Below are positions 10,589 to 29,827 of a DNA stretch of 42,309 nt, piece by piece. A program made the translations under genes and the position numbers. Source of the DNA: a virus; IMG/VR virus record IMGVR_UViG_3300037137_000583, positions 1 through 42,309 of that record, one strand, 5' to 3'. The notes under the pieces were generated by a model that saw only the letters and a list, made by a program, of their open reading frames with translations, was not told the origin of the DNA and did not search any database. Numbering within the stretch: the stretch's first letter is position 1; each line of letters opens with the position of its first letter.

Positions 10589-11614
10589 ATGCCTCCATCA
10601 ATTAATATCCAGACAACCACGAACCAATACCTCGCTCCAGCTTGGGTAGACCAAGTATTGCGAGATAACTTCTTCTTCGGTGAAATCCTAGGGAACACCG
10701 AAAAATGGGACGGTTCGCAGATGTTGTTCCCTATAAAGTACCAGAAAGGAGTGGCTTCTGTAGCCTTCAACGGCTTCGATCAGTTGCCAACCACACAGCA
10801 ACCTGTGTCAGTTAACATGACATTCTACCCGACCTTCGTCGCTACAAATGTCGCTTTGGCTGGTTCAGATTTGTCTGTTAACAAGACTCCGCTTCAGAGA
10901 TTGAATCTCATGAAGACCATGATGAAGTCCAGAGCTCAAGATGCTGCCGATGATATCGGTAACTTCTTCCAGGGTGATGGCACTTCCTTCGGTGGCAAAG
11001 CTCCTGCCGGTCTCGCCAACATCGTTGACGATGGCTCAGTTGCTTCCACTTACGGTGGTCTGTCCAGAGCAACCTATGCGGGTCTTAACGCAACTGTCAC
11101 AGCTTCAGGTGGAACAATTTCGCTCTTGAAAGTCAGACAGCTTGCTAACTCAATCACTGATGGTCGTGTAGCTCCATCGTTTGCCTACACTGATTACACC
11201 ACTTGGTCATACTTCGAACAGCTCTTGCAACCATTCCAACGCAATACATACTCTGACTTCCAGAATATGGATGCCGGAACCGGATACAAGGCTAAGGGTC
11301 TGATCTGGGATGGCTTGACCATCTATAAGGATAAGAAGTGTCTAACAGGTAACTTCTATCTCTTGAATCTTGACTACCTCAAATTCTTCGGACTGAACTG
11401 GTGGGAAGGAGAGGCTGTTTCTCTTGAAGACAAAAATATCAAGGGTAACATCTATGCCTACAACCCAGCCAATGCAACCAAAGCCTTTACATGGACTAAT
11501 TGGATCAAAGCTTACAACCAGGGAGCAGTAAATGGCTTCATGATTATGGGCGGTCAGTTGATCTGTACTAACCCATTCCGTAACGGCAAACTCACCGGTG
11601 TAGCTGGTGTTTAA
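10589..11614 (+). CDS. Major capsid protein (HK97-fold type)
   Basis: A 341-residue protein starting MPPSINIQTTTNQYLAPAWV. DNFFFGEILGNTEKWDG at residues ~26-42 resembles the N-terminal region of a family of phage major capsid proteins. The C-terminal part contains KAKGLIWDGLTIYKDK, typical of the HK97 A-domain. It directly follows the scaffold gene and precedes decoration-like genes. No N-terminal delta domain is obvious, consistent with a separate scaffold. Hundreds of copies form the icosahedral shell. A perfect palindrome CCATATATGG (11615-11624) follows the gene. Confidence 0.85.
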   Translation: MPPSINIQTTTNQYLAPAWVDQVLRDNFFFGEILGNTEKWDGSQMLFPIKYQKGVASVAFNGFDQLPTTQQPVSVNMTFYPTFVATNVALAGSDLSVNKTPLQRLNLMKTMMKSRAQDAADDIGNFFQGDGTSFGGKAPAGLANIVDDGSVASTYGGLSRATYAGLNATVTASGGTISLLKVRQLANSITDGRVAPSFAYTDYTTWSYFEQLLQPFQRNTYSDFQNMDAGTGYKAKGLIWDGLTIYKDKKCLTGNFYLLNLDYLKFFGLNWWEGEAVSLEDKNIKGNIYAYNPANATKAFTWTNWIKAYNQGAVNGFMIMGGQLICTNPFRNGKLTGVAGV

Positions 11615-26609: not shown

Positions 26610-27011
26610 ATGGCTTTTGCTGCAAGTCTTATACCAAGCGTAGCGACGACTACAGCTTTAGAGGCACCTTTGCCGGTTCCTGAGACCATCGAGGCACCAC
26701 AGGAGCCACAGCAAGCCACAGGGGGAATTGAGTGCTCTTGCGTCCTTTTCGTGAAATCTTTGGGCTTTAAACTGCCCAGATTGATCGATGCCGGAAACTT
26801 GGATACTAATTCAAGAGTACCAATCAAGGGAGGCATCATTTCGTTCGTCTATGAAAACGGAATGCATCATCTTGCCTATGTAGAAAGCATTCAGCCGGAT
26901 GGCATTCACATCAAAGAATCAAACTTTGAAAAGTGCAAAATTGGAGAAAGAATTATATCGCCAAACGATGAACATATCATTGGATTCTGGCGATCTCCCG
27001 ACATCGATTAG
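26610..27011 (+). CDS. CHAP-like cysteine peptidase/amidase with hydrophobic N-terminus
   Basis: A 133-residue protein. The first ~20 residues are hydrophobic (MAFAASLIPSVATTTALEAP) and the frame is open to 26568, where further hydrophobic codons precede the ATG, so a rare start codon upstream could extend a signal or anchor segment. A Pro/Glu linker follows, then ECSCVLFVKSLG (Cys42/Cys44), PIKGGIISF and NGMHHLAYVESI (His86/87), the Cys...His order of CHAP/NlpC-type wall hydrolases. It may be a second lysis enzyme or a virion-borne wall hydrolase. A terminator follows at 27086. Confidence 0.6.
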   Translation: MAFAASLIPSVATTTALEAPLPVPETIEAPQEPQQATGGIECSCVLFVKSLGFKLPRLIDAGNLDTNSRVPIKGGIISFVYENGMHHLAYVESIQPDGIHIKESNFEKCKIGERIISPNDEHIIGFWRSPDID

Positions 27012-27039
27012 TCGTCGTACTAAGGGGGCATTTAGTATG

Positions 27040-27061
27040 TAATTATTAACACTAATAATTA
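27040..27061 (+). repeat. AT-only perfect inverted repeat
   Basis: TAATTATTA (27040-27048) pairs with TAATAATTA (27053-27061) around ACAC. It lies between the CHAP-like gene and the terminator and is likely part of the transcription-end region. Confidence 0.45.
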
Positions 27062-27085
27062 TTACTAACTAATAAATAGCAGGAG

Positions 27086-27106
27086 AGGCGAGTCGATTCG
27101 CCTTTT
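27086..27106 (+). terminator. Intrinsic terminator of the structural/lysis operon
   Basis: AGGCGA (27086-27091) pairs with TCGCCT (27098-27103) around a 6-base loop, with TTTT following at 27103-27106. It ends the operon after the lysis genes and lies just upstream of the small-RNA promoter. Confidence 0.75.
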
Positions 27107-27109
27107 CTG

Positions 27110-27124
27110 TTGTGGTATAATTTA
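27110..27124 (+). promoter_or_regulatory. Extended -10 promoter for a small RNA
   Basis: TTGTGGTATAATTTA contains TGgTATAAT (27113-27121), an extended -10. The -35 is weak. The same 15 bases recur at 39794-39808 ahead of the chaperonin leader. Transcription would begin near 27128. Confidence 0.7.
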
Positions 27125-27127
27125 GAT

Positions 27128-27272
27128 GAAATGGTTTTTGTAATCTGACAGACGGCTTCCACCGACTAACCCTAAACACTGACTATTGAGCCAAGTGTTC
27201 CCAACCTACTAGCGGTGGTGTCTTCAGATTCACTGGAGGGGAGAGTTGTACACTCTTCCCTTCTTTCTGTTG
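27128..27272 (+). ncRNA. Self-contained pseudoknotted small RNA
   Basis: A ~145-nt transcription unit bounded by the promoter at 27110 and a terminator at 27238. P1 pairs 27142-27148 with 27224-27230 and, past a bulged C, 27150-27153 with 27220-27223 (11 bp). P2 pairs CCACCG (27159-27164) with CGGTGG (27213-27218). P3 pairs AACACT (27175-27180) with AGTGTT (27194-27199). GGCT in the P1-P2 internal loop (27154-27157) can pair with AGCC in the P3 loop (27189-27192), forming a pseudoknot. No ORF of note lies inside. I cannot assign it to a known RNA family. Confidence 0.7.
27238..27272 (+). terminator. Intrinsic terminator of the small RNA
   Basis: GGGGAGAGT (27238-27246) pairs with ACTCTTCCC (27252-27260) over 9 bp with one G-U and a 5-base loop, followed by the T-rich TTCTTTCTGTTG. 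Confidence 0.75.
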
Positions 27273-27285
27273 TGAACATTCTACC

Positions 27286-27306
27286 TGTGGATAACTCTGT
27301 GGATAA
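27286..27306. promoter_or_regulatory. Two perfect DnaA boxes
   Basis: TGTGGATAA occurs at 27286-27294 and again at 27298-27306, direct repeats separated by CTC. Each is the complement of the consensus DnaA box TTATCCACA. They lie 17 bases before the gene at 27323 and may let host DnaA regulate it or take part in replication. Confidence 0.75.
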
Positions 27307-27322
27307 CTGATATTGTCTGGGT

Positions 27323-27508
27323 ATGAAACCGGATCCAAATAACGACATGATTCCAAGAATGCGATCGATCGTGCAGAGGCAAAAACCATGTAAAGACTGC
27401 GGGGAAATGATGGATTATGTCAGTATTCATAAAACATTCTGCTTTGAATGTAAGTTGAGAAGAAAGGAGGAATTGAGAAGTAAACGAAAAAATGAGAAAA
27501 GAAAGTGA
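27323..27508 (+). CDS. Small zinc-ribbon protein
   Basis: A 61-residue protein with CKDCGEMMDYVSIHKTFCFE at residues 23-42 (CxxC...CxxC) followed by a basic tail (KLRRKEELRSKRKNEKRK). The four-Cys ribbon plus basic tail suggests DNA or RNA binding. Similar short ribbon proteins accompany HNH genes in phages. It overlaps the next gene by 17 bases. Confidence 0.65.
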   Translation: MKPDPNNDMIPRMRSIVQRQKPCKDCGEMMDYVSIHKTFCFECKLRRKEELRSKRKNEKRK

Positions 27509-27899
27509 TGAAATTCGTAAAGAGAGATGCAGAAAAGCCGCTATAACACACGGTATGAGCAAAACCAATTTCTATGCTGTATGGAAAAGCATAAAGCAAA
27601 GGTGTACAAATCAAAAGACCTCTAGTTTTAAGGATTATGGTGGTAGAGGAATAAAACTATGTAAAAAATGGTTGAAATTCAAAAACTTTAAAGAAGATAT
27701 GTATGAAAGTTATCTTGATCATAAGAGAAATTATTCATCTACCACGATAGAAAGAATCAATAATGATAGTGATTATTCAAAAGATAATTGTAAGTGGGCA
27801 GTTTGGAGTGAACAATTCTCAAATAGAAGAATCCCTAGAGGATATGTTTGGAAAAAAAGAAAATCTAGTATTTTATTTATTGGATTGATTTATATATAA
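27492..27899 (+). CDS. HNH/AP2-type homing-endonuclease-like protein
   Basis: A 135-residue protein. HGMSKTNFYAVWKSIKQRC, then FKDYGGRGIKLCKKWLKFKN, TIERINNDSDYSKDNCKWAV and EQFSNRR are the ordered hallmarks of a family of phage endonuclease-like proteins in which an HNH-derived core (D-R-I-N-N-x-x-x-Y-x-x-x-N-C-x-W) recognises DNA. It is probably a mobile nuclease. It sits at the edge of the non-coding RNA region, where such elements often insert. The C-terminus (ILFIGLIYI) is atypically hydrophobic. Confidence 0.8.
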   Translation: MRKESDEIRKERCRKAAITHGMSKTNFYAVWKSIKQRCTNQKTSSFKDYGGRGIKLCKKWLKFKNFKEDMYESYLDHKRNYSSTTIERINNDSDYSKDNCKWAVWSEQFSNRRIPRGYVWKKRKSSILFIGLIYI

Positions 27900-27956
27900 T
27901 AAAAAAGAAAAATAAACTCATATTTTAAATAAAAAAGAGTTCTATATTTTTCGTAC

Positions 27957-28054
27957 GCTCCAGTAAAAAGGAGCAGACAGAGAGAAATCTCTGCAGGTGA
28001 ACAGCCCGTCGGCAGATCAGTGTAAGCTTGTCTGTGCGATAGGGCTGTTTGTCT
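27957..28054 (+). ncRNA. Three-hairpin structured RNA
   Basis: GCTCC/GGAGC (27957-27961, 27970-27974) is followed by CAGAGA-GAAA-TCTCTG (27978-27993), a GNRA-capped stem. An 8-bp stem AACAGCCC/GGGCTGTT (28000-28007, 28042-28049) follows, with an inner 5-bp stem (28012-28016, 28031-28035). AGACA (27975-27979) can alternatively pair with TGTCT (28050-28054) to close a junction. It ends just before the promoter at 28056. No coding potential. It may be a separate small RNA, a terminator complex or the 5' part of the large RNA. Confidence 0.55.
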
Positions 28055-28055
28055 C

Positions 28056-28084
28056 TTGACTATTTACAAGTATCTTGCTATACT
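28056..28084 (+). promoter_or_regulatory. Sigma70-type promoter for the large structured RNA
   Basis: TTGACT (28056-28061), a 17-base spacer, and TATACT (28079-28084) with an extended TGc. Initiation is expected near 28091, the first base of a 6-bp stem-loop. Confidence 0.75.
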
Positions 28085-28301
28085 AGTAAAACTTCCTTAA
28101 TGGAAGTCACGCTTTTGGCAAGTAGTCAATATTGCCTCGCTAAAAGATATCACCAAAACATCACTTGTGGGCGAGTGGTGTTTTGATTTATAATGAAGAC
28201 AAATCTCTTCGCCTCATCAGCTGGAGCTTCCAAATGAGTAGATTTGCATGAAAGATGCATAGATTTGGAGGGGGGAACGGGTAACCTCCCTATGATGCAA
28301 T

Positions 28302-28487
28302 ATGAATTACAAAAGAAGATCGTGCCGTCACAGATTCCTGAACGGCAAGTTTATGTTTAACAGCGTGTGGTGTTTCAAAAAGAGTTTCCTCCGGGATTAT
28401 TTGGATAAAAGCATATGGAAAAAAAGTATAAAAAATGCCCGAAATGCTGGTGTCATTATACCGGAAACCATAGATGCGATGGACTAA
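28302..28487 (+). CDS. Doubtful short ORF inside the structured region
   Basis: A 61-codon frame, MNYKRRSCRHRFLNGKFMFN at the start, basic with two Cys. It is preceded by a GGAGG/CCTCC hairpin (28267-28271, 28285-28289). It overlaps the 28415 ORF in another frame. It may be a spurious frame in an RNA gene. Confidence 0.2.
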   Translation: MNYKRRSCRHRFLNGKFMFNSVWCFKKSFLRDYLDKSIWKKSIKNARNAGVIIPETIDAMD

Positions 28488-28564
28488 TGAGACTACTTGT
28501 GGAACACTATAAAAGCAAAAAGAAGAGTTCTTTGAGTCTTGGGTTGACTGAAACAACGCTATAG
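28415..28564 (+). CDS. Possible 49-aa Cys/His-rich protein
   Basis: MEKKYKKCPKCWCHYTGNHR at the start with a further Cys at 21; the C-x2-C-x-C-H-x4-H-x-C spacing (residues 8-21) is consistent with a zinc site, then a basic helix. The stop falls inside the stem 28555-28572. It may be a real micro-protein within the RNA region or a chance frame. Confidence 0.35.
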   Translation: MEKKYKKCPKCWCHYTGNHRCDGLMRLLVEHYKSKKKSSLSLGLTETTL

Positions 28565-29012
28565 CCAGCGTTAAAGTGAAGCGAAAGCCAATAGGTTGGG
28601 TGAGTAGTTCGCTTACGGGGATTAACATCTGGTTTAACTTACGGCTATGCAAACGGCTCCAGATAAACTGAGTGAGCCATGCGGGCAAAGGGTAGAGAGA
28701 AGCATTCTAGATTGTTTATCTTTACTTCCGCATTAGGACAAGATCCTGCTGGGTAGCGGGAAGTCCCTTCGGATCAGGGTGGGCCCTGGTTGATGCAAAA
28801 ATAAAAGCTGAATTACCCCCCGTATTGTGAGTAAAAAGTAGACTCACACCCAAGACTTGGAGAGTTCTTTGTCGGCTCGGAGTCATGCTCCGAGACAATC
28901 CTAGTCCTCGGAGGACGGACTACTAGGCAGGCTCCGGGCCGATAGAGAATTATCAACAGGATATCTACTTTTAAGATATAGACTATCCTAACCACCACGG
29001 TATGATGTTGGT

Positions 29013-29082
29013 ATGGGAAAGAGTGAAAATATTGTAATTAATAGCCACCAGCGACCAAGAGACTTATTCACTCTCTTCCCAT
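29013..29082 (+). promoter_or_regulatory. Putative antiterminator helix
   Basis: 29013-29027 pairs with 29067-29082 over 15 bp with one bulged C. The 3' arm abuts the 3' arm of the terminator and the terminator's 5' arm lies inside, so the two helices cross and should exclude each other (or form an unusual pseudoknot). This would make readthrough into the replication gene conditional. Confidence 0.55.
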
Positions 29083-29099
29083 TCGCTGGTGGCTTTTGA
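29013..29099 (+). CDS. Possible 28-aa leader peptide
   Basis: ATG at 29013 opens 28 codons (MGKSENIVINSHQRPRDLF at the start) ending at TGA 29097-29099, nine bases before the replication gene. The ORF spans all arms of the antiterminator/terminator pair, as leader peptides in attenuators do. It could also be chance. Confidence 0.25.
   Translation: MGKSENIVINSHQRPRDLFTLFPFAGGF
29043..29098 (+). terminator. Strong intrinsic terminator before the replication gene
   Basis: AGCCACCAGCGA (29043-29054) pairs perfectly with TCGCTGGTGGCT (29083-29094) over 12 bp, with an inner AAGAGA/TCTCTT stem, followed by TTTT (29094-29097). It ends the structured RNA and lies 10 bases before the ATG at 29108. 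Confidence 0.8.
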
Positions 29100-29107
29100 T
29101 TATAAAT

Positions 29108-29827
29108 ATGGCAAATCCACAAAAAGAACATGGGTACACGGGGATCGCAAACGAAATACTGGATCATTTGGTCGAGCCAGGAATCAATGGCAGTGAATAC
29201 CGAGTCCTTCTATTTGTGATCCGAAAGACATATGGGTTTCATAAGAAAAAAGATCGAATATCATTATCACAATTTGCTAAATCAACAAAAATGAACAGGA
29301 GAGAAGCGATTAGGACCATCAAAAGGCTAGTAGGTAAAAGGATAATACTAAAGGAAAACGGAGTATATTCCTTCAATAAAAATTGGGAAGAGTGGGTAGT
29401 GGGCAAACGCCCACATAGTGGGCAATTGGACACTGGGGGGGGTGGGCAATTGTACCCCAAAAGTAGTGGGCAATTGACCACCCACAAAAGAAAGAAAGAA
29501 ATAGAAACAAAAGAAACTCTTGCGGCTAAAGCCGCTTCATGGGTTTTGGAAGAAAAACTTCAGGAAATGGAAGAAGTGCAAAATTCATACAAAGACATTA
29601 TCGCCACCTTTATTCGAGAGAAGCCAGTCAAGGTGGAGAACGCCAAACAACTTTCAAATATCATAGGTCGATATTGTAGGATCGCCCAGAAACTTTCGGG
29701 GGCGTATACCAACAAACAGATATTTGAAGTAGCTGAGCGGATTAAGAAAGACAATGAGAAACGACAGCGTCAAGGCGATGAAATTGATTGGACTCTCGAG
29801 ACAATTTATAAGTATTTAACAAAATAA
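29108..29827 (+). CDS. Replication initiator, lambda O-like N-terminal domain
   Basis: A 239-residue protein. The ATG at 29108 (MANPQKEHGYTGIANEILDH) is preferred over TTG at 29096. GSEYRVLLFVIRKTYGFHKK (~28-47), DRISLSQFAKSTKMNRREAI and RTIKRLVGKRII are the winged-helix DNA-binding domain of phage replication protein O. A linker of GQL-x-T/Y repeats (~101-122) is encoded by DNA carrying four iterons. The C-terminal part is helical and would recruit the host helicase loader or helicase. As in lambda, the initiator should bind an origin located in its own gene. Expression is probably controlled by the terminator/antiterminator just upstream. Confidence 0.88.
   Translation: MANPQKEHGYTGIANEILDHLVEPGINGSEYRVLLFVIRKTYGFHKKKDRISLSQFAKSTKMNRREAIRTIKRLVGKRIILKENGVYSFNKNWEEWVVGKRPHSGQLDTGGGGQLYPKSSGQLTTHKRKKEIETKETLAAKAASWVLEEKLQEMEEVQNSYKDIIATFIREKPVKVENAKQLSNIIGRYCRIAQKLSGAYTNKQIFEVAERIKKDNEKRQRQGDEIDWTLETIYKYLTK
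29397..29515 (+). other. Putative replication origin: four iterons plus A-rich tract
   Basis: Four copies of GTGGGCAA(TT/AC)G start at 29399, 29418, 29442 and 29466 (spacing 19, 24, 24). The first forms an inverted repeat with GCCCAC (29409-29414). A purine/A-rich tract (about 29483-29515) follows, as expected for an unwinding element. The arrangement inside the O-like gene mirrors lambda ori. Confidence 0.75.

Follow-up and report, generated by a model that had tools for sequence, protein, structure and literature searches.

A putative attenuator in the leader of phage repO genes and a probable structured non-coding RNA upstream of it in a virus genome

The rep leaders of plasmids pT181 and pIP501 are transcription attenuators of replication-initiator genes; they are short, form two mutually exclusive pairings and place a terminator before the start codon. 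The large RNAs GOLLD and ROOL are phage-associated, several hundred nucleotides in length and highly structured. A further phage RNA, manA (RF01745), is found upstream of genes (Weinberg et al. 2010, PMC2864571). Here we analyse a 1-kb region, flanked by an HNH endonuclease gene (27492-27899) and the replication gene repO, in a 42-kb virus record (IMG/VR record IMGVR_UViG_3300037137_000583; its 42,309 nucleotides are referred to below as the window). The initial annotation treated this region as a single structured RNA with its own promoter and terminator. We divide this unit into an orphan structured body and, following on from it, a probable repO attenuator that had not been recognised before; on balance we favour the view that the region is a long structured plus-strand transcript running into the repO leader.

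Nearly all genes in the window lie on the plus strand and include those for terminase, portal, major capsid and collagen-like tail proteins, with a chaperonin gene at the window end. The repO gene (29108-29827, plus strand) encodes a replication initiation O-like protein (Pfam Phage_rep_O, E=3.2e-23; PHROG replication initiation O-like), and its start was set at the ATG at 29108 because the same MANPQ/MASPQ peptide opens its relatives. Phages related through this capsid gene, at identities reaching 94%, have different early regions. The capsid protein itself (gene 10589-11614) is 67-94% identical across records with GC contents of 0.31 to 0.61, and comparison of its gene with genome contigs, which bears on the question of the host, gave only two binned contigs. 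Two of the capsid relatives, G031 and G025 (L134, L139), contain tRNA gene arrays within long non-coding stretches, and a sub-threshold match to Y RNA-like (YrlA) sequences (30.5 bits, E=0.0035) occurs near the G031 array (L135:383-437, minus strand).

The leader of repO contains four segments on the plus strand, in the order A-B-A'-B'. Segment A (ATGGGAAAGAGTGAA, 29013-29027) forms the 5' end of the leader and starts 95 nt upstream of the repO ATG. Segment B (29032-29054) is the 5' arm of a hairpin abutting repO and forms 22 bp (mean P 0.97) with segment B' (29083-29105), a terminator-like 3' arm with a U-run, as judged from folding and from comparison of leaders. Segment A' (TTCACTCTCTTCCCAT, 29067-29082), identified by shuffle and rank tests, occupies the loop of this hairpin directly 5' of B' and can form 15 bp with A (p=0.010 against shuffles; best rank among the loci). 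Since A' joins B' without a linker in the window, the A/A' and B/B' helices can hardly coexist, which is the layout of an attenuator. The B/B' hairpin had been annotated as the terminator of the 1-kb RNA itself; the hairpin is real, but it belongs to the repO leader, lies 2 nt from the ATG with a promoter-like site just 5' of it, and recurs in repO phages that do not carry the 1-kb RNA. For example, L003 and L006 encode a related repO and possess no such body, yet have a terminator-like hairpin immediately before the repO ATG.

A long B/B' hairpin, usually with a U-run, is found no more than 20 nt from the repO start in 27 of the 79 repO loci examined, these hairpin loci having been picked partly after their folds were seen. 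When upstream sequences were swapped among phages and a place in the best tenth was taken as a pass, A fitted A' better than 90% of the upstream sequences of other phages at 15 of the 27 hairpin loci, compared with none of 12 control loci lacking the hairpin. A dinucleotide-shuffle test of the A/A' complementarity gave p<0.05 at 10 of 24 loci (combined p=1.7e-8). Complementarity is maintained with a sequence particular to each phage, as in L159 (TACCCCGCAAA/TTTGCGGGGTA), L161 (GAAGTATTGGCA/TGCCAATACTTC) and L166 (CTTGTGCAAGAGG/CCTCTTGCACAAG), and in L226 the pairing of A reaches into B'. Significant A/A' pairing is absent from 12 of the 27 hairpin loci, L006 and L153 among them. The leader element is the strongest result of this analysis, since complementarity has survived the turnover of sequence. 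It can be regarded with good confidence as a real, conserved RNA. The A-B-A'-B' order combined with sequence turnover looks like the mark of an attenuator with mutually exclusive helices, although A and A' could instead be inverted repeats at the DNA level.

A second, weaker promoter-like sequence (TAGACT-16-TATGAT, 28979-29006, plus strand) is located 6 nt 5' of segment A, and similar sites are present in several other repO leaders: a -10-like hexamer lies 6-10 nt before A in the window and in L155, L161, L166, L167, L173 and L203, several of which also have a TTGACA-like -35. The leader resembles the pT181 and pIP501 rep leaders in being short, in having two exclusive pairings of which the alternative one is kept despite changed sequence (15 of 27 loci), and in carrying a terminator-like hairpin between a promoter, recognised as a sequence match, and the start codon. 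It differs from them in that the arms are interleaved as A-B-A'-B' with A' in the terminator loop, the gene controlled would be a phage repO, no Rfam family covers it, and no antisense promoter is apparent, a search of the minus strand from 27000 to 29300 having revealed no promoter-like site. An attenuator controlled by antisense RNA is not supported, as no opposing promoter was found within the leader.

We propose, on this comparative evidence of A-B-A'-B' complementarity across phages and of its place before repO, that the last ~95 nt (29013-29107) constitute a repO attenuator, with the promoter at 28979-29006 starting an mRNA near segment A. During transcription A would pair with A' once the latter is made, and B would then be barred from closing on B'. 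Were A already occupied, whether by a protein, by an RNA or within some other structure, B/B' would close as a terminator beside the start codon and repO would be off. If true, phages of otherwise unrelated sequence decide replication via a short RNA switch in which the sequence is free and the order of pairing is fixed; this would also offer a simple rule by which the leaders of replication-initiator genes could be sought in metagenomes, along with an RNA decision point open to testing.

The region ahead of the leader begins with a strong promoter-like site, which the initial annotation had proposed as a promoter, TTGACT (28056-28061) and TATACT (28079-28084) on the plus strand, separated by 17 nt and with an extended -10 (TGn). 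As a match to the consensus this claim was borne out, since no other site in the 42-kb window matches 10 or more of 12 positions and also has TGn; weaker promoter matches in the window are not above the numbers in shuffles. The non-coding character of the region was likewise confirmed by codon statistics, as none of the frames between 28000 and 29100 has a score resembling those of this phage's genes and 28086-29008 is non-coding by this measure. Two small plus-strand open reading frames (28302-28487 and 28415-28564) score -0.10 and -0.20, compared with 0.03 to 0.33 for genes. A hidden protein was ruled out, there being no coding frame and no homologues of these small open reading frames.

The sequence from 28086 to 29008, which we term the body, folds at -304 kcal/mol on the plus strand and -257 kcal/mol on the complement, corresponding to z-scores of -7.0 and -5.3 against dinucleotide shuffles; 13 control windows ranged from +2.5 to -5.1, the lowest starting at 26901 and including a structured stretch at ~27001-27200. 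All the predicted domains are on the plus strand. The 5' domain (28086-28300, z=-4.18) includes a 14-bp hairpin at 28154-28185 (helix P=0.99). This is followed by a weakly structured middle (28301-28510, z=-2.25), with a predicted long-range helix (28366-28388/28489-28511) and the two unsupported open reading frames, and by a multi-helix junction (28511-28872, z=-5.34) closed by 28530-28543/28849-28862. Beyond the junction lies a 25-bp hairpin with six G-U pairs (28864-28889/28926-28950; mean P 0.97), the interval 28860-28960 having z=-5.92. The folding energy is thus concentrated in the 5' domain, the junction and the interval of this hairpin. An exact 11-nt direct repeat, AGAGTTCTTTG, is present on either side of the junction at 28524-28534 and 28861-28871.

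The dozen or more stems annotated earlier are upheld in so far as 31 helices have a predicted pairing probability >0.6 and the folding energy is unusual, but the 228 confident pairs are not far above the 167 +/- 39 in shuffles. As the number of long-range pairs is also not clearly above shuffles, a compact overall fold is unsupported, whereas local stable domains are supported. A suggested pseudoknot between TCGC (28137-28140) and GCGA (28171-28174) had to be abandoned, the GCGA lying mostly inside the 14-bp stem 28154-28167/28172-28185 (P 0.99), which leaves only TGGG in the loop.

Stems of this kind might instead be DNA features of a replication origin beside repO, comprising palindromes, DnaA boxes and an AT-rich tract. 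Two tandem perfect DnaA-box sequences (TGTGGATAA; 27286-27306) and, further on, an AT-rich tract (27880-27950) would fit a possible origin 5' of repO, the adjoining gene is a replication initiator, and good folding is seen on the complement strand as well (z -5.3). However, the plus strand folds 47 kcal/mol better than its complement and G-U pairs lie within the helices, which points to a plus-strand RNA, and the interleaved A-B-A'-B' order with its U-run and promoter-like sites suits RNA attenuation; we consider it improbable that the stems are such DNA features. The support for an RNA body comes from the folding of a single sequence, which suggests that the body is likely a structured non-coding RNA matching no known class, and that it is probably functional.

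Searches for relatives of the body, in sets from which near-identical records may be absent, were negative throughout. No homologue was detected by blastn among 50,697 phages, 72,556 plasmids or 40 related phage records, and within 2 Mb of related-phage loci only AT-rich sequence outside the RNA was matched. DNA pattern scans of IMG/VR gave chance matches in unrelated sequence, and no relatives were found via the neighbouring gene 30307. In the non-coding gaps of relatives no comparable large RNA was found, the long ones being tRNA arrays or weakly structured. One match, of H73 in a Lachnospiraceae phage, was dismissed as chance because it lies within a gene. In consequence the body has no covariation support, and the new class of large RNA raised by the initial annotation cannot be claimed. 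At curated thresholds no Rfam family matches the 1-kb stretch. Group I and group II introns beside the HNH gene were also rejected, no Rfam intron family being found in 27050-29200 at E<=5.

The likeness to GOLLD or ROOL proposed for this region holds in so far as the body is probably a structured non-coding RNA and is, like these, phage-associated, several hundred nucleotides long and highly structured, but it has no sequence or structure match to either at E<=10. The GOLLD model (RF02032) finds nothing in the window record at this threshold or at its gathering score, and the ROOL model (RF03087) likewise gives no match at either level (at E<=10 control genomes gave none either); membership of both families was rejected on these grounds. 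The size of the region, its strong promoter, the phage setting and the low folding energy would nevertheless suit a free-standing large phage RNA (28086 to ~29094), a particle or scaffold like GOLLD or ROOL of which the repO hairpin is merely the end. We regard this as unlikely, given that neither model matches at E<=10, that the sets searched yielded no homologue and no relative was seen to carry the body, and that long-range pairs are as numerous as in shuffles.

The best Rfam match in the 2-kb stretch under relaxed thresholds is to manA (E=7.8e-4 over all families), which raises the possibility that 28518-28857 is a diverged member of this cyanophage cis-regulatory domain controlling repO. 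The two agree in the helix that closes the junction, in UGACUGAA...UAAAGUGA and in the loop UANNNAGUA. The score of 24.9 bits compares with a gathering cut-off of 55.2 and with 146-186 bits for true cyanophage and marine phage members; neither of the conserved segments that make up the core of those members, GGUGGUGC and CUGUAG...AUGCCC, is aligned, and an insertion of 191 nt is required. The body thus shares with manA a place 5' of genes in a phage and a partial junction resemblance, but with a score far under the cut-off and the core motifs missing, membership was rejected and a diverged manA appears very improbable.

In the account that we favour, the body and the attenuator belong to one transcript. 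The 28056 promoter would produce a non-coding RNA of ~0.9-1.0 kb, mostly ending at the same B/B' hairpin, and the folded body would most likely be a cis-acting extended leader tuning repO expression or the start of replication. Transcription, termination, the signal and the link between body and attenuator are all points that we infer, and judged from its position alone the body may regulate repO. Masking of A by upstream sequence in read-through transcripts was tested and rejected (combined p 0.95), so that a cis link of body and attenuator is unsupported. A bolder reading, which we put forward only tentatively and think rather doubtful, takes the two parts together as new RNA families. One would be a repO attenuator widespread in phages, the mRNA 5' end invading the loop of a terminator next to the start codon; the other would be a class of large orphan RNAs, placed ahead of the attenuator and governing phage replication. 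If true, the upstream body represents another orphan large structured RNA beside the few known in phages.

Two further elements lie 5' of the body. A strong hairpin within 27950-28056 (z=-6.0) directly precedes the 28056 promoter and may terminate upstream transcripts. Further upstream, 27107-27268 contains an extended -10 (TGTGGTATAAT) followed after ~140 nt by a terminator-like hairpin (27235-27263), and may encode a small RNA.
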